Positions 3,391-18,351 of a DNA stretch of 20,019 bases are shown piece by piece. The stretch is from a virus. Each line of letters starts with the position of its first letter. Position 1 is the first letter of the stretch. The DNA is taken from IMG/VR virus record IMGVR_UViG_3300042516_005580, positions 1-20,019 of that record. One strand, written 5' to 3'. The notes beneath the pieces are model-generated. The model did no database searches and was not told the origin of the DNA. It saw only the letters and a list, made by a program, of their open reading frames with translations. The position numbers were made by a program, and so were the translations under genes.

Positions 3391-4053
3391 TTAGTTTATT
3401 CTATTAACAATAATAGGAATAGTTAATCTAGCACCACTATCTAAACCAACAACAGTTAAGGTAGCAGAAATTTGTTGGTTAGAACCAAATAATGTATTGA
3501 TTGTTGTTGCTCTTAAATTAAGTTGAGTTCCAATAATTGTTTTAGATACGTTAGTACCTAAAGTTGTTGTTGCTGATTGATTTGCGGCTTCAGCAGCTGT
3601 AGTATTAATACCAACACCGGTAAATGTACTCATTAAACGTACATCTGAAATGGTGGCTGAATATCCACTGGTTTCAAATGTTTGGGTATTACCTAGGTAA
3701 TTTAATGTTTGAGGAGTAATTGAAAGTGAAGCTCCTTGCTGTAATGTAATTGCAGTGTATCCTAAATCAAGTACAGGTAATTTAGCTGTTCCACGAGGTA
3801 AAGTAGCTAATTTATATTTCATGATTTGGGTTTCTTGAGGAAAAGCCTCAAGTAATGGCATGTTTTGAATTGCTTCACCGTAAAAGGCAGAACCTGATGG
3901 GTGTGTTGGGTTATATAGAGTATAATCTATTTCATCATCAGCTAATGCAAATTGAGTAATTCTAAAAGAACCATCATTTTTAGCTAATAATTCTCTACCT
4001 TTTGTTGTTAAAATAGCATCAACTGTTACTACTTGGTTATTTAAATATCCCAT
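3391..4053 (-). CDS. Phage tail structural protein with conserved N-terminal module
   Basis: A 220-residue protein whose first 45 residues (TTKGRELLAKNDGSFRITQF, then ALADDEIDYTLYN) form a module I recognise from many uncharacterised phage structural proteins, where it may anchor variable C-terminal parts to the tail. The C-terminal half is Thr/Ala/Gly/Ser-rich and ends in a beta-sandwich-like stretch (QISATLTVVGLDSGARLTIP). No enzyme motif is visible. It is the first gene after the 1976-residue giant, separated by a 40-base gap holding a candidate late promoter, so it may be expressed independently and at high level, as an abundant tail component would be. The family assignment is from pattern memory; the precise role is unknown. 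Confidence 0.7.
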   Translation of the reverse strand: MGYLNNQVVTVDAILTTKGRELLAKNDGSFRITQFALADDEIDYTLYNPTHPSGSAFYGEAIQNMPLLEAFPQETQIMKYKLATLPRGTAKLPVLDLGYTAITLQQGASLSITPQTLNYLGNTQTFETSGYSATISDVRLMSTFTGVGINTTAAEAANQSATTTLGTNVSKTIIGTQLNLRATTINTLFGSNQQISATLTVVGLDSGARLTIPIIVNRIN

Positions 4054-4065
4054 GTTTTATTTTAT

Positions 4066-4074
4066 TATAAATAT
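4066..4074 (-). promoter_or_regulatory. Candidate late promoter element ATATTTATA before the 220-residue tail gene
   Basis: The coding strand reads ATATTTATA in the 40-base gap 4054-4093; 12 bases separate it from the ATG. It is one of four exact copies, all in gaps before structural genes. Together with its flank it forms the 15-mer ATATTTATAATAAAA (4060-4074), repeated exactly at 11521-11535. The T4 late box TATAAATA is its reverse complement, and TATATTTA also resembles the Bacteroidota -7 box TAnnTTTG. Function is inferred from recurrence and position. Confidence 0.45.
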
Positions 4075-10024: not shown

Positions 10025-10386
10025 TATTGTGGATTAGCTATAGGGGTTCCTGTTTGGGCTTCTATTAATTGTCTTTGAGTATCAAGTAATTCTGTTCTTA
10101 ATTGATCTATCTCACGTTGAAGTGCTAAAATTAAATCATTATTTGGTTGAAAATTAATATATTCTGTACTTGTAATAATTAAATATTCATGTGAATTAGT
10201 AGCACCTAGTTCAGGTATATCATAAAACAATTCATCATACATTTGAAAAAATTGTTCAACATTATTTTGTTGTAAAATTAATTCTGGGATAGTTTGTACT
10301 CCTAATTCAGTAAAAGAGGTATCAATTACCTTTTGGTAGTTAGCTTTATTATATACCTGTTTATTAAAATTTACACTTTCACTCAT
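10024..10386 (-). CDS. Small baseplate-region protein with C-terminal coiled coil
   Basis: A 120-residue protein I do not recognise. The first 60 residues are mixed, with aromatic-rich QFFQMYDELFYDIPELG in the middle. Residues about 82-112 (ILALQREIDQLRTELLDTQR and onward) form a clear heptad coiled coil, so it probably oligomerises. It is wedged between two structural genes: its ATG overlaps the upstream stop by 4 bases (ATGA) and its stop overlaps the giant gene's start (TAATG). That tight coupling suggests it is made in step with, and perhaps binds, the giant tail protein, as an assembly factor or small wedge subunit. This role is inferred from context only. Confidence 0.7.
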   Translation of the reverse strand: MSESVNFNKQVYNKANYQKVIDTSFTELGVQTIPELILQQNNVEQFFQMYDELFYDIPELGATNSHEYLIITSTEYINFQPNNDLILALQREIDQLRTELLDTQRQLIEAQTGTPIANPQ

Positions 10387-11519
10387 CCGTTTATAACTTT
10401 AAAGTAATATTGATCATTATAAATAAGTGTAGAACCATTAATTATTGTTTTTATTAAAATTTCATAATATCTTTCAGGTTCTAACCCATTCATATACACA
10501 TCAAAATAATTTCCATTAACATCAGAACTAATTTGAGTGTATTGAGTATCGAAGTTAATAATATATTCATTGGTATCCAAGTCTTTTACTGCATAGTATG
10601 AAGAAGTTGGTAAAAAATATAGATCAGTAAAATATGAAGATGTTTGAAATGTTCTTGGTGGATATAAAGGACTAACATTTACCCTAAATCTATTTATACT
10701 TTCAGGATAGAATATTCCAGAATTTTCACCTAATGCTATTTTAAGATCATTAGTATTAACTATACTTGAGGTAAGTGATCCTGTTAAAATAGTAGAATAA
10801 TCTCTCCATTTAAATTCTAATTGAGGGGGATAAATAGTATTAGTATCAACACTATAATATTTAATTACAGGTTGTACATAAATGCTAGGGTTAAATTCTA
10901 CGCTATCTTCCCATTTAGTTATAAATCCATAATTTGGAAGAGAACCACTATACCATTTAGATACAATTGTTTTAACTCCAATACTTAAATCTTTATCACT
11001 TCTTAAATCAAAAGATTGGGTAACTTTATATGTTGGTACTCCTGAACCTGAATAAAACCAGTTACATCCACCGGCTCCTGCGTAACTAGGATTATATGAG
11101 CTAGTGTATAATTCAGATCCAACAGATCCACTTAATGACCATGTTCCTGATCCTGAATAGAGAGAATATAACCAACATACTCCATCTGTGGTTTGGGGTA
11201 CATCTGCAAATTCTCCAGTTCCATTATTCCATTCTTGGGCTACAGGCCATACTTCTAAATCATATGAAGCTGCTATTCCTTGGGCAGATGCAACAAAAGA
11301 TTTAAAATATACATCCCAATTAGATCCACTAATTTTGTTATTAATTACATCTAAAATTTCAGTTGAATCAAATTGAGTCAAAAAGCGGGAAACGTCAGGA
11401 GTTCCTTCAATAGTTATACTATTGTAAACTTCACTAATGGCGTCTACTCCTGTATTCATAACAGGATAATAGGAATATATAGAAGCGTCCTTGTAAGGAA
11501 ATAATTTATAAACAGCCAT
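10383..11519 (-). CDS. Virion structural protein with DNRLRE-like domain
   Basis: A 378-residue beta-rich protein following gp6. The N-terminus (YKLFPYKDASIYSYYPVMNT, then GTPDVSRFLTQFDSTEI) resembles DNRLRE surface-protein domains, which start with a D-A-x-I/V strand and an R-x-L-x-x-F-D step. The middle is crowded with SGS/TGS turns (YSGSGTWSLSGSVGS). The C-terminus (NGLEPERYYEILIKTIINGS) looks like a fibronectin-type strand pair. No cleavage or catalytic motif and no signal peptide are present. It lies between gp6 and the tail protein I-like giant, so a baseplate wedge or fibre-connecting role is plausible, possibly replacing a T4 wedge protein. The 15-base gap before its start contains a candidate late promoter. 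The domain call is moderate; the role is inferred. Confidence 0.7.
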   Translation of the reverse strand: MAVYKLFPYKDASIYSYYPVMNTGVDAISEVYNSITIEGTPDVSRFLTQFDSTEILDVINNKISGSNWDVYFKSFVASAQGIAASYDLEVWPVAQEWNNGTGEFADVPQTTDGVCWLYSLYSGSGTWSLSGSVGSELYTSSYNPSYAGAGGCNWFYSGSGVPTYKVTQSFDLRSDKDLSIGVKTIVSKWYSGSLPNYGFITKWEDSVEFNPSIYVQPVIKYYSVDTNTIYPPQLEFKWRDYSTILTGSLTSSIVNTNDLKIALGENSGIFYPESINRFRVNVSPLYPPRTFQTSSYFTDLYFLPTSSYYAVKDLDTNEYIINFDTQYTQISSDVNGNYFDVYMNGLEPERYYEILIKTIINGSTLIYNDQYYFKVING

Positions 11520-11526
11520 TTTTTAT

Positions 11527-11535
11527 TATAAATAT
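11527..11535 (-). promoter_or_regulatory. Candidate late promoter element ATATTTATA before the 378-residue structural gene
   Basis: Copy two of the four ATATTTATA sites, with 7 bases between it and the ATG. The motif shares one base with the gp6 stop codon, so the whole gene-to-gene gap is essentially this element plus an A-rich run. The 15-mer at 11521-11535 is identical to the one before the 220-residue gene. If it is a -10 box with T4-like spacing, the transcript would begin about two bases before the ATG. Confidence 0.45.
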
Positions 11536-13388: not shown

Positions 13389-13795
13389 TAGATAAATTCA
13401 ATTTCAAGGTTATCAGTGATGTTAGTATTAATAATACTATATGAAAGTTCTACTTTTAGTTCATTTTGGTCCTCTAAACCAATAACATTTAATGATTCAA
13501 TTTTTATATTAGGGAAATATAAAACTATTTTTTCACTAATATCTTCTAAAAGAAATTCAGTATTTTCAGCTGTGATTTGTTCAAAAATAAATGCTCTTAA
13601 TCCTCCTCCAAATGTTGGATTCAAATATCTTTCCCCAGGGTTTGTAAGAAAAAAATTTATTAAATTATTTTTTATAGCATCTTTAGTTAAATAATTTGAT
13701 TTAAAAACAGCAGGGTCATTAAATGGAATATCTACTCCAACGGCTTTGTTAGGATTTAAATCAATTGGGTATATTTGTTGGGGATTAAATGCCAT
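13388..13795 (-). CDS. Baseplate wedge protein, gp25 / GPW-like
   Basis: A 135-residue protein of the gp25/gpW family, the small wedge subunit that joins the gp6 ring to the first sheath layer in contractile tails and injection systems. The diagnostic stretch TNPGERYLNPTFGGGLRAFI (51-70) includes the conserved E-R pair and the glycine cluster. FFLTNPGER before it and the C-terminal strands (LKVELSYSI) are typical. Length is the family norm (T4 gp25 is 132). It overlaps both neighbours by one base as TAATG: the 111-residue gene upstream and gp6 downstream. The gp25-gp6 adjacency is conserved across contractile tails. Confidence 0.95.
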   Translation of the reverse strand: MAFNPQQIYPIDLNPNKAVGVDIPFNDPAVFKSNYLTKDAIKNNLINFFLTNPGERYLNPTFGGGLRAFIFEQITAENTEFLLEDISEKIVLYFPNIKIESLNVIGLEDQNELKVELSYSIINTNITDNLEIEFI

Positions 13796-14130
13796 TATTT
13801 AGAATTTAATAAACCCATAATTTGATCCATTCCTACTTCACCAGCTCCTAAATTACCATTTACAGGATCACTTACTTGAGGTCTAAAAGGAACAGCATCT
13901 TGAGATGTAAAACTCATAGCTGTTTCACCTAATACTTCAGCATATTTTGATCTAAAATCAATTGATGGAGGAGCATATGTAGGTTGTGAAGGTTGAACAG
14001 GTGAAGAATATGATTCTTTAACTACTTGTTTTGGAGAACGAACAGCTTCCAATAAAATATCCTTCAATTCTTCTTGAATTGCTTCTTTTACTGCTTGTTT
14101 GATTATTTTTTTAAAATCTGTGCTTTTCAT
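13795..14130 (-). CDS. Small protein with N-terminal amphipathic helix, baseplate region
   Basis: A 111-residue protein of no family I can name. Residues 1-32 (FKKIIKQAVKEAIQEELKDI and onward) form a long charged amphipathic helix. A Ser/Pro/Gln-rich linker (SSPVQPSQPTYAPPS, about 41-55) and a C-terminal part ending GEVGMDQIMGLLNSK follow. This helix, flexible linker and short tail are what one expects of an adaptor or assembly chaperone, not an enzyme. It begins a small cluster with gp25 and gp6, joined to gp25 by a TAATG overlap, and the gap before it contains a candidate late promoter. A wedge-assembly role is only inferred from that context. Confidence 0.65.
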   Translation of the reverse strand: MKSTDFKKIIKQAVKEAIQEELKDILLEAVRSPKQVVKESYSSPVQPSQPTYAPPSIDFRSKYAEVLGETAMSFTSQDAVPFRPQVSDPVNGNLGAGEVGMDQIMGLLNSK

Positions 14131-14135
14131 ATGGT

Positions 14136-14144
14136 TATAAATAT
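14136..14144 (-). promoter_or_regulatory. Candidate late promoter element ATATTTATA before the 111aa-gp25-gp6 cluster
   Basis: Copy three of the four ATATTTATA sites, 5 bases from the ATG, in an 18-base gap. With the spacing of a T4 -10 late box, transcription would start on the A of the ATG, giving a leaderless message. Alternatively the site could act in translation initiation. The shorter shared context here is AAATATTTATAACC. Confidence 0.42.
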
Positions 14145-15726: not shown

Positions 15727-16988
15727 TACTGTACTTTGGTTGTTAATGATTTAAGATTATTACCATTTAATTGAGTTACAATATCTCCTAAAACAATTAA
15801 AACATTACCTGCAACAGCATTATATCCTGTTTGTAAATTTCCACCGGGCCAATTTCTTTCAACTTCTAATATTGTAGCTAAATCCTTAACTGCTTTAGTT
15901 AATTGTTTTAGTAATTCAATAGTTGTATCACCTTTTAAAACAGGTTCAGTAGCATTTTTAGATCCTAATTTAATATCATTTGAACTAATATAAAATGAAT
16001 TTGCATCTATATTAGCACTACCTTTAGTAGATATCCCAACAGATTTTTGAGCACTTAATAAAACACTATCCGTTTTAGCATTGATTACAATTCTATTAGA
16101 ATTAAGAGCAATTTGTGGTTGGGTAAATAAACTAGGTGCTATTGGTGGAGTAGTATATGAAGAATATAATTCATTTGCTACTTTAAAATCTTGTAAACGC
16201 TGAAATGAGGTTAAATAAATTGATGATAAATCATTTCTAATATCCTCCGTTATAGGAATCCATCCTTCAGATGAAGCTCTTGGAGATTGACCATTTCGTA
16301 AAATCATAATAGGATCTCCATTTTGACCAGCATTTGACCAATTATTAGTAAGTGCACTATTTGATTTTGCTGTAGAACCTAATCTTAAACTTTGACCATA
16401 TCTTCCTTCAAAAATAACATCTCCCATAAAAGGTGCTAATGGGTGGATATTAGATTTTTCAACAAATGTATTTTGGCTAGGATTTAATTTACTATTAAAA
16501 TCAATTTCAATAGACCCTCCAGGATTAATTTTTGGAATTCCTCCTTCAGCTTGTTGATAATCTACTTGTTGGGATGGAAATAATTGAGATTTAGAAGGAT
16601 TAGGAGATGCATTGTGATTAGATGCATTCCATAAATTTATAGGGTTAATATAATAATATTGATTTTTATAAGTATTTGAAGTTGAAGTAGGAACTGGAAG
16701 GGTAAAAATTAAAACTAATTCATTTACTACAGGGAAATACCTATTTTGGGGGAATAATGGTTTTGCTGTTTTAACAGCCCCAGAATTATCAGATGATATT
16801 ATTTCAAACATTATAGACCCTATAGAAGTATATTGTCCCGAAGATTGAAATAAAGGATGTTGTTCATTTAAAATGATATCAGTTACTCTACCTATAATAT
16901 ACGTTTTGGATTTATTTGATTTCCCTCCAAGTGTATTTTTAGAAGTAGAGTTAGAAGTTAAACCTGAACTACCTGCTTTATATATCAT
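15726..16988 (-). CDS. Baseplate central spike, gp5/gpV-like, without lysozyme domain
   Basis: A 420-residue protein with the layout of a contractile-tail spike. Residues about 28-120 fit the OB-fold hub-binding domain (TYIIGRVTDIILNEQHPLF, then NRYFPVVNELVLIFTLP). Residues 180-235 hold a conserved block, GDVIFEGRYGQSLRLGS followed by GDPIMILRNGQ, that I recognise from large myoviruses. Residues about 290-350 are short repeating strands typical of the triple-stranded beta-helix needle (RIVINAKTDSVLLSAQKSVG, then FYISSNDIKLGS). A short helical end follows. Unlike T4 gp5 there is no lysozyme insert between OB fold and needle, so cell-wall cutting must be done by another protein. Its start overlaps the 112-residue gene by 4 bases (ATGA) and its stop overlaps the next start. 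Confidence 0.85.
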   Translation of the reverse strand: MIYKAGSSGLTSNSTSKNTLGGKSNKSKTYIIGRVTDIILNEQHPLFQSSGQYTSIGSIMFEIISSDNSGAVKTAKPLFPQNRYFPVVNELVLIFTLPVPTSTSNTYKNQYYYINPINLWNASNHNASPNPSKSQLFPSQQVDYQQAEGGIPKINPGGSIEIDFNSKLNPSQNTFVEKSNIHPLAPFMGDVIFEGRYGQSLRLGSTAKSNSALTNNWSNAGQNGDPIMILRNGQSPRASSEGWIPITEDIRNDLSSIYLTSFQRLQDFKVANELYSSYTTPPIAPSLFTQPQIALNSNRIVINAKTDSVLLSAQKSVGISTKGSANIDANSFYISSNDIKLGSKNATEPVLKGDTTIELLKQLTKAVKDLATILEVERNWPGGNLQTGYNAVAGNVLIVLGDIVTQLNGNNLKSLTTKVQ

Positions 16989-17323
16989 TCTTTAGAGTTG
17001 AATTTTTTAACCTCTGAAAGTAATTGGGCTTTTTCTTCTTCAGTCATACCAAATCCTTCTTCTTCTGATTTATTAGAGGCTAAAGCACGTTGAACAATAG
17101 TAGCCATTTTAATAAGTTGTTCATCATTTTTGATACCTAGTTCCATATATTCCTTAATTAAAGGAACAATTAAAGTAGCATCACCTATATCATTAATAAG
17201 TGGTTTTAATTCACCTATTAAAGCTGTGATTTGTTGCTCTTTTTTCTTTTGGTTTTCGTAAATTTCTTTGAATATATCAGAAAGTTTTTTCTTACCAAAT
17301 ATGTTAGATTCTAAATGACTCAT
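16985..17323 (-). CDS. Helical protein of the baseplate region, unknown function
   Basis: A 112-residue, almost wholly helical, charged protein. The first half reads as one long helix (KKLSDIFKEIYENQKKKEQQ, 12-31), followed by IGELKPLINDIGDATLIVPL and a second helical pair ending in a Glu/Lys-rich tail. There is no cysteine cluster, membrane span or catalytic motif. It is the first gene after the sigma factor and overlaps the spike gene by 4 bases (ATGA), so it probably heads the virion operon; the gap before it carries a candidate late promoter. A chaperone or assembly role for the spike or hub is a reasonable guess from position only. Confidence 0.65.
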   Translation of the reverse strand: MSHLESNIFGKKKLSDIFKEIYENQKKKEQQITALIGELKPLINDIGDATLIVPLIKEYMELGIKNDEQLIKMATIVQRALASNKSEEEGFGMTEEEKAQLLSEVKKFNSKE

Positions 17324-17336
17324 AATATATTTTGGG

Positions 17337-17345
17337 TATAAATAT
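17337..17345 (-). promoter_or_regulatory. Candidate late promoter element ATATTTATA at the head of the virion block
   Basis: Copy four of the ATATTTATA sites, 13 bases before the ATG of the 112-residue gene, in the 31-base gap after the sigma-factor gene. This copy reads TATATTTATACCC, so it also fits TAnnTTT of the Bacteroidota -7 box. About 20 bases upstream is ATTTTC and no clear TTTG, so a host-type -33 box is not evident. It lies exactly where non-structural genes give way to structural ones. Confidence 0.45.
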
Positions 17346-17354
17346 AGAAAATTA

Positions 17355-18059
17355 CTAAAGTTGAAAATTGGTATATCCTTGATCTAAATAAAATAAATAA
17401 TTTCTTTTAAATATATCATAAAGAATACCCGCAATTTTGGTAATTTTGGGGGTTTTTGCCTCTGGGATGATTTCATGGATATAGATGTAGAGGGCTTTTT
17501 TATTAAAAATATCTATACTATCCCGTTTTCTAAACAATTCTAAAACAGCATCTGCAATTTTAGCATCAAATTCTTTAGGGAAAATGTCATATATATTAAA
17601 ACTAACGAATTCAACCCATTGATCTATAAAAATTGATAAACGGTCATCTACTGGGGTTGTATCTAAAGTATAGGAATATGAATCGTCTTTTAAAAGTTCA
17701 TCAGTTGAAACTTTACTAATTTTACTTTTATAAGTTTTATCGTTATATAATATACACCAACGTTTTACAATAGTGCCAAAATATGAGTATGCCTTAGCAC
17801 CATTATTTGGATTAAATAAATGCATTTTAGATAAAAGAAAAACCTCTATCTCGTGTTGTAAATGCTCTAAATTTTCAACTTCGGTATGATAAAACTTAAA
17901 AGTATGAATTATATTTTGTGTAAGCTTAAAAAAGGCATAATGTATTTTATCTTCATATATTTTACTTTTTAAAACAGTATCCACAGTGTTATTATATAAC
18001 ACTATGGCATCCTCTGTTTCTTGAGTAAAATAATTTCTATTAGTTGCTTTTTTAGGCAT
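17355..18059 (-). CDS. Late-transcription sigma factor, T4 gp55-like
   Basis: A divergent sigma factor of 234 residues that would direct host RNA polymerase to phage late promoters. Helical residues about 35-118 resemble sigma region 2: FKFYHTEVENLEHLQHEIEV, then MHLFNPNNGAKAYSYFGTIV-KRW followed by a basic KSKISKVS. T4 gp55 has a matching order (LHNFDETKYKNPHAY then a basic run). The C-terminal helices (IHEIIPEAKTPKITKIAGIL) might form a second DNA- or polymerase-binding unit. I chose the ATG at 18059, 4 bases after the previous stop within TAAAAAAATG; a longer form starting at 18092 would overlap that gene by 29 bases. The next genes downstream are structural, matching a late regulator. Similarity is moderate. 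Confidence 0.75.
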   Translation of the reverse strand: MPKKATNRNYFTQETEDAIVLYNNTVDTVLKSKIYEDKIHYAFFKLTQNIIHTFKFYHTEVENLEHLQHEIEVFLLSKMHLFNPNNGAKAYSYFGTIVKRWCILYNDKTYKSKISKVSTDELLKDDSYSYTLDTTPVDDRLSIFIDQWVEFVSFNIYDIFPKEFDAKIADAVLELFRKRDSIDIFNKKALYIYIHEIIPEAKTPKITKIAGILYDIFKRNYLFYLDQGYTNFQL

Positions 18060-18063
18060 TTTT

Positions 18064-18351
18064 TTAGTTGAACTTTCTAAGATTAAATTCATTGAGAATG
18101 TCTTGGATTTTTAAAATTGATTGAAATATAACTCCAACTTCATCATCCTTTTCAAAAACACCTCCACGATCTAACTCTTTAAGTTTCTTGTCTGAGATTT
18201 CAATTGTACGGGATAAACGATCTAGGTAGGTTAAGTATCCTGCTACAATATCTTCTTGTTTTTCGTTTTTACGAAGGAGATTAAAAGTCGTAAATCCTAG
18301 AATTACGACTAATACTGCTAAAACACATGTTATAATTATTAAAGCTATCAT
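18064..18351 (-). CDS. Small single-span membrane protein
   Basis: A 95-residue protein starting with a strong transmembrane helix (IALIIITCVLAVLVVILGFT, 2-21, continuing to about 26), directly followed by basic LLRKNEK. By the positive-inside rule this gives an outside N-terminus and a cytoplasmic tail of about 65 residues. The tail is helical and charged (YLDRLSRTIEISDKKLKELD). It is not a classic holin, which usually has two or three spans or a lysis-timing layout. It overlaps the HD gene stop by 4 bases (ATGA) and lies just before the sigma-factor gene. Membrane anchoring of replication, or altering the host envelope, are both possible; nothing in the sequence decides. Confidence 0.65.
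   Translation of the reverse strand: MIALIIITCVLAVLVVILGFTTFNLLRKNEKQEDIVAGYLTYLDRLSRTIEISDKKLKELDRGGVFEKDDEVGVIFQSILKIQDILNEFNLRKFN

Follow-up and report, generated by a model that had tools for sequence, protein, structure and literature searches.

The nine-base word ATATTTATA appears to be a -10-like late promoter box in T4-related tailed phages, probably phages of Bacteroidota. In the proposed mechanism, a phage sigma factor, most likely a 245-aa protein, would recruit the host's RNA polymerase to the box, with no need of a -35 element. Transcription would begin ~3–5 nt past the box, giving leaderless messages where the spacer to the start codon is 3–5 nt, e.g., at a gene for a 111-aa protein, and leaders of roughly 2–20 nt elsewhere. 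We hold with fair confidence that the box is a variant of the T4 type of late promoter, read by a phage sigma factor and followed by leaders of 0 to ~20 nt in a clade of T4-related phages. Taken separately, and as judged from sequence comparisons, the promoter reading of the box and the near-leaderless nature of the late messages are each likely, and the chances of strictly leaderless messages at genes with 3–5 nt spacers are about even. We infer that the 245-aa protein reads the box, that translation is leaderless, and that the timing is late, as well as the host and the precise position of the start.

Placement of the box in the window and in related phages

The window, i.e., the whole 20,019-nt stretch of viral DNA that was analyzed, contains 19 ORFs that were considered, all of them on the minus strand and including genes for T4-type baseplate wedge proteins and a DnaG-type primase. 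Four copies of ATATTTATA are present on this coding strand and none on the opposite strand. They lie 13, 5, 7, and 12 nt ahead of the ATG codons of genes for 112-, 111-, 378-, and 220-residue proteins, and the coordinates of the initial annotation are correct. The boxes, the genes behind them, and the candidate sigma factor gene are as follows:

17355..18092, minus strand: gene for the candidate late sigma factor, 245 aa, with putative sigma region 2 at about residues 16–123
17337..17345, minus strand: ATATTTATA box, 13 nt ahead of the ATG (17323) of the 112-aa gene
16985..17323, minus strand: 112-aa gene with no assigned function; predicted leader ~8–10 nt
14136..14144, minus strand: ATATTTATA box, 4 nt past the stop codon of a 525-aa gene and followed by ACCAT, 5 nt to the ATG (14130..14128) of the 111-aa gene
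13795..14130, minus strand: 111-aa gene with no assigned function; start predicted to be leaderless
11527..11535, minus strand: ATATTTATA box, 7 nt ahead of the ATG (11519) of the 378-aa gene
10383..11519, minus strand: 378-aa gene with no assigned function; predicted leader ~2–4 nt
4066..4074, minus strand: ATATTTATA box, 12 nt ahead of the ATG (4053) of the 220-aa gene
3391..4053, minus strand: 220-aa gene with no assigned function; predicted leader ~7–9 nt

The lack of Shine-Dalgarno (SD) sites noted earlier for the four genes behind boxes extends to the whole window, in which none of the 19 ORFs carries an SD-like word (GGAGG, AGGAG, GAGG, AGGA, GGAG, or AAGG) at positions -20 to -5. Reading by eye found the variant ATATTTAAA 2 nt ahead of the ATG of the primase-like gene (4-933; region 1-945).

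The number of boxes in the window is ordinary by itself and carries no significance: four copies on both strands compare with a mean of 2.58 (sd 1.62) in shuffled sequences, and at least four were reached in 29 of 100 shuffles, as expected of a word that arises by chance in AT-rich gaps. Because the count was not above chance, placement was analyzed instead, and the placement of the four boxes, unlike their number, is unusual. Sequence not covered by the 19 ORFs amounts to just 414 of the 20,019 bases, and it holds all four boxes, one of which extends over the final base of a stop codon. Among the 18 ORFs with a measured upstream gap, a box precedes four of the seven with a gap of at least 15 nt and none of the other 11, which overlap the preceding gene or lie no more than 11 nt from it.

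Relatives of the window were sought with a 617-aa baseplate protein, which was compared with 50,697 phage records and matched best to Flavobacterium phage immuto (45.9% identity), Microcystis phage Mel-JY01 (44.0%), and an uncultured phage (37.4%). From scanned viral contigs, the best 80 of 344 relatives were retained, along with the best 80 of 469 for the 220-aa protein. In 80 related loci plus the window, ATATTTATA occurs 227 times on the dominant coding strand vs 17 times on the other, and 186 copies lie within 25 nt ahead of a called start. When 219 partly overlapping sources were combined, after removal of copies with an identical 69-base context or too close to the end of a locus, 319 of 423 distinct copies were located within 40 nt ahead of the ATG of an ORF with 50 or more codons, and these 319 copies span 58 protein families. 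By the same 40-nt measure, the reverse complement scored 11 of 431, and four permuted words scored 9/221, 29/313, 6/121, and 10/215. This placement and strand bias in the relatives, set against the controls, refute the explanation by a chance word, which retains next to no credibility.

The strand bias recurs in individual genomes. Sense:antisense counts of ATATTTATA in six large contigs are 33:3, 25:3, 31:3, 22:2, 19:2, and 23:1 (153:14 in total), and in immuto the ratio is 16:1. Further contigs gave 21:1 (G002, which overlaps G001), 6:1 (G003), 12:0 (G004), 6:1 (G006), and 5:2 (G007), with G005 as an exception (5:5). The immuto boxes stand ahead of genes annotated as terminase, tail sheath, tail tube, baseplate hub, and tail spike, as well as several hypothetical genes.

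The T4 late consensus TATAAATA has the opposite distribution, with 141 sense and 307 antisense copies in the 80 loci plus the window; the enriched word is ATATTTATA and not TATAAATA. The exact presence of TATAAATA on the strand opposite the box raises the idea of T4-type promoters that face the other way and drive antisense RNA. The position of the box nevertheless tracks sense start codons, as the 11 of 431 for the other strand attests; A-rich bases occupy its sense-downstream side, with no bias on the other side; and the window ORFs all share one strand. Such opposite-facing promoters are thus very improbable.

A different role in expression would be served if AUAUUUAUA were an untranslated-region element that aids the ribosomes of hosts lacking SD pairing, with the promoters further upstream. 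In seven genomes, however, the exact box precedes just 126 of 1287 genes at a box-to-ATG spacing (d) of 3–30 nt (a total in which 100-base overlaps between sequence pieces may count a few genes twice), vs one gene in the gene-body control. It is nearly absent from closely packed genes, which would need such an element too: the upstream gap is 11 nt or less for four of the 126 genes with a box and for 607 of 1132 others. Boxes wholly within the preceding ORF numbered three in the seven genomes. The spacing is also broad for a ribosomal signal, and no other conserved word was found in the 40 nt ahead of the box in family representatives. A translation signal would suit the constant nearness of the box to an ATG, its AU-richness, and the lack of SD sites at these genes; on balance, it is improbable.

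The next most common upstream forms were ATATTTAAA (28), ATATGTATA (24), and ATATTTATT (23). In 50 kb of Mel-JY01, the box occurs once in sense orientation, and SD-like words accompany 24 of 51 genes. Its ortholog of the 220-aa gene (L006, 31837), inspected by eye, has ATATTTATT 39 nt upstream with CGGAG between, vs a spacing of 12 nt and no SD-like word in the window, a contrast that concerns a single gene. Other repeated words were encountered as well. In G001 (L090-L098), TCGTATATT is enriched ahead of genes (22 upstream regions; 33 copies in sense and 2 in antisense orientation) and is a candidate for a second promoter class. In immuto (L087, L005, L088, L089), overlapping words that spell approximately ATATTTAGGTATCAATAATTAAAACA lie upstream of 10–18 genes and are candidates for an early or middle promoter. 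ATGCTGAAGG is also repeated (L090-L098, L206-L241; 49 sense copies across the G001 pieces), and its repeats code for reiterated SHAEG peptides, which resemble those of repetitive fibre-like proteins.

Spacing of the box and predicted leaders

The distance between box and ATG ranges overall from 3 to ~30 nt. The median of the family-median spacings is 13 nt, with values <3 in one family, 3–5 in nine, 5.5–10 in eight, 10.5–15 in 24, and >15 in 16. The distribution has an edge at d = 3, with one family below it (an immuto gene with d = 1) and 15 families at 3–6 (P = 0.00026 assuming equal density). This edge fits a transcription start 3–5 nt past the box, because an AUG located upstream of the start could not be part of the message. 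The initial annotation had assumed T4-like spacing. With the box accordingly ending at -6, its arithmetic is right: the message of the 111-aa gene would begin with the A of the ATG, and those of the other three genes would have leaders of 2, 7, and 8 nt. Families with d = 3–4, for which a T4-spaced start would fall within the ATG, imply that the start is closer or flexible or that these genes are read from other RNAs. With the start placed 5 nt past the box, seven families would have it inside or past their ATG. The register of the start is probably 3–5 nt after the box, and strict T4 spacing suits d = 5, not d = 3–4.

Starts assumed 3, 4, and 5 nt past the box predict median leaders of 10, 9, and 8 nt and leaders of 10 nt or less in 32, 36, and 42 of the 58 families, respectively. 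The proposal that the late messages are leaderless or nearly so is likely in its second form, with short leaders predicted for 32–42 of 58 families, but not in its first as a general statement: strictly leaderless spacing belongs to a minority of families (9/58 with a median d of 3–5), and the predicted median leader is 8–10 nt. A Kozak-like A at -3 or -6 was considered as a mark of a missing leader and was rejected, since, across families, genes with short spacers and genes with long ones were not clearly distinguished by the bases at these positions. Position -3 is C or T in 54 of 58 copies of the 111-aa family, which is a single family.

In the 111-aa family, the spacing is 5 nt in 53 of 58 copies, 6 nt in four, and 7 nt in one. 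The N-terminus of the protein is conserved from residue 1 among relatives, with K2 kept in 54 of 55 members and K7, I10, and K11 in 55 of 55. In 42 of 55 members, codons 2–30 include an in-frame ATG, GTG, or TTG that may formally serve as the start instead, although residues 2, 7, 10, and 11 are conserved. Several proteins behind boxes, including that of 13795-14130 and its relatives, begin with a pattern like MKxxxLKKLIKE, often after short spacers, which may represent a common targeting or assembly peptide.

The constant spacing of this family was initially attractive as proof of coupling between promoter and ATG. It is no such proof, because the distance from the upstream stop codon to the box is just as constant, at 4 nt in all 53 cases measured. 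This constancy, together with a stop codon just 18 nt ahead of the 111-aa ATG and downstream genes that adjoin or overlap by one base, would also suit a promoter that is not leaderless. In that arrangement, transcription would start at least 6 nt past the box, the RNA lacking the first AUG would serve downstream genes (e.g., gp25-like and gp6-like), and the short-spaced gene would be translated from read-through RNA by coupling to the upstream stop. However, an RNA that can do without the AUG gives no reason to expect the edge at d = 3. Moreover, the family of the 378-aa gene (374–378 aa) has retained its starts at box spacings of 5, 7, 12, 13, and 14 nt. We regard the non-leaderless arrangement as unlikely, and a promoter that may start the message at or shortly before the AUG remains the preferred reading.

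A candidate sigma factor and comparison with T4

The 245-aa gene, which directly precedes the box at 17337..17345, is a likely sigma-region-2 protein on the combined sequence and structure comparisons, and it is probably the sigma factor that matches the box. Weak matches to phrog_234, which represents the late sigma factors of T4, came from G004 (E 0.0021), immuto (0.0083), and G003 (0.0117); G001, G005, and Mel-JY01 had no match to it. Sigma70_r2 matched G001 at 0.0223, below its cut-off. All four of these weak matches, three to phrog_234 and one to Sigma70_r2, lie on orthologs of the 245-aa gene. By itself the phrog_234 search lacks specificity, as 7 of 14 control genomes also gave matches. 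When members of the sigma family were searched instead, 11 of 29 matched phrog_234 weakly (best E 0.069), which placed it second to the unannotated phrog_11747 (18/29); the 245-aa protein of the window had no PHROG match. The immuto ortholog, gp118, is annotated "hypothetical protein," and phrog_12791 found no match in G001, immuto, or Mel-JY01.

Alignment of the family profile with eight gp55 sequences paired residues 14–115 with gp55 residues 3–108 (E 0.0021, hhalign probability 13.5%). The 45 sigma-family loci yielded two alignments, A1 (28 plus the window, 29 rows) and A2 (23 plus the window, 24 rows), from which duplicates and partial or over-long ORFs were dropped, as were loci from other tools in the case of A2. 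A structure model based on 24 sequences had a mean pLDDT of 73.7 and a pTM of 0.44. Foldseek placed sigma factor or polymerase entries at ranks 1–14 in the PDB (best E 0.41); among viral models, the top match (E 1.6e-5) carries no name and several named lower ones are phage sigma factors. Structural realignment with 439 chains gave sigma factor or RNA polymerase in the 50 rows listed, including entries named RPSH, RPSB, and RPSD, which we take to be sigma factors. These rows cover about residues 16–123 with Z scores of 10.7 to 8.0, in a range (below ~13) that, where proteins are helical, may reflect no more than a common arrangement. The name of T4 gp55 is absent from these 50 rows and may appear further down. 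When solved structures were searched by sequence with members of the sigma family, one match at chance level resulted, and bacterial genomes encoding the family were not found. The family is present in six of seven large genomes with the box, the one without it being the 129-kb contig G011, and the Mel-JY01 member is 36.6% identical. Two members contain a long insertion close to the middle of the sigma-region-2 part (L029:374-1384, 336 aa; L086:2628-3503, 291 aa).

Transcription of T4 late genes is a textbook system, in which the promoters leave room for an SD-containing leader. In 100 kb of the 169-kb T4 genome, 18 TATAAATA sites have a start no further than 120 nt away, at 13 nt or more in each case, and an SD-like word accompanies 17 of the 18, as scored with ORF calls on both strands and a laxer SD pattern than in the window (GGA included). 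Excerpts of published accounts describe the T4 late promoter as a TATA box of 8 bp that lies roughly one turn ahead of the start, with AT-rich sequence downstream and an unconserved -35 region (PMC2988020, PMC7892883). The box of the present clade is likewise strand-specific (9 bp), stands ahead of structural genes, has A-rich sequence downstream, and lacks a conserved -35 signal, with no position from -40 to -1 ahead of it above 0.17 bits in 43 family representatives. As far as these excerpts describe the T4 system (gp55, gp33, and the gp45 clamp), the two share a short -10-like box, an unconserved -35 region, AT-rich downstream sequence, a phage sigma-like protein with region 2 (here a candidate), and use at structural genes. 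They differ in the box, which is ATATTTATA rather than TATAAATA (TATTTATA agrees with TATAAATA at 6 of 8 positions), in the ATG spacing of 3 to ~30 nt (median 13) vs at least 13 nt in T4, and in the sigma candidate, which is weakly similar to gp55. A gp45-like clamp (phrog_223) was found in G001 (E 2.7e-7) and not in immuto or Mel-JY01. The initial proposal of a promoter with very short leaders has thus gained from the strand bias, the unconserved -35 region, the sigma-like gene, and the spacing, but its strict T4 spacing is contradicted at d = 3–4.

Hosts and meaning of a box adjoining the start codon

The virus group probably infects Bacteroidota, a host assignment that derives from the Flavobacterium phage immuto. 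Where hosts do not depend on SD pairing, a phage would need no room for a leader, and the box could directly adjoin the ATG. Excerpts of two papers (PMC9723704, PMC6847099) report that Flavobacterium psychrophilum has its sigma-A box at -12 to -5, a median leader of 24 nt, and 5.5% leaderless messages, and that in Flavobacterium johnsoniae sites with 4–5 nt between the -7 element and the start are probable promoters and 87% of leaders exceed 10 nt; a similarly excerpted account gives ~3.7% of leaders as <10 nt in Bacteroides thetaiotaomicron. As presented in the same excerpts, flavobacterial sigma-A promoters share with the phage box an end 4–5 nt ahead of the start, about as the spacing edge suggests here, and translation without SD pairing; they differ in their consensus, TAnnTTTG, and in the longer host leaders. 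By this comparison with T4 and with Bacteroidota hosts, the predicted late leaders of the phages are shorter than both.

Other systems offer partial parallels, as far as excerpts of the sources describe them. Leaderless genes of other bacteria with a -10 box just ahead of the start codon (PMC3160421, PMC4633059) are similar in that promoter and start would make up one unit; unlike theirs, the present box is phage-specific and presumably late, with starts predicted from sequence. Freshwater Bacteroidetes phages that encode bS21 (PMC9723584) have a similar habitat and similar predicted hosts, and their structural genes are strongly transcribed; unlike in those phages, bS21 did not exceed the cut-off in seven large genomes of the present clade. 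A passing remark in an excerpt of PMC5312081 holds that phage transcripts are often leaderless. Among the literature matches listed, titles and abstract openings do not describe this motif or the late promoters of T4-like phages of Bacteroidota.

A broader proposal, which we put forward tentatively and with somewhat less than even confidence, is a fusion of late promoter and start codon throughout the clade, in which a single nine-base box, when recognized by a diverged gp55-like sigma factor, would fix both the RNA start and the choice of AUG. By design, late messages would then have no leader or almost none, and as infection proceeds to its late stage the host ribosome might favour them over host mRNA that has a leader. 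If leader room does vanish in phages of hosts without SD pairing, the layouts of promoter and ribosome-binding region would evolve together. For a large group of environmental phages, the analysis also yields candidates for both the promoter and the sigma factor, and with a cultured phage, leaderless translation in Bacteroidota becomes testable.
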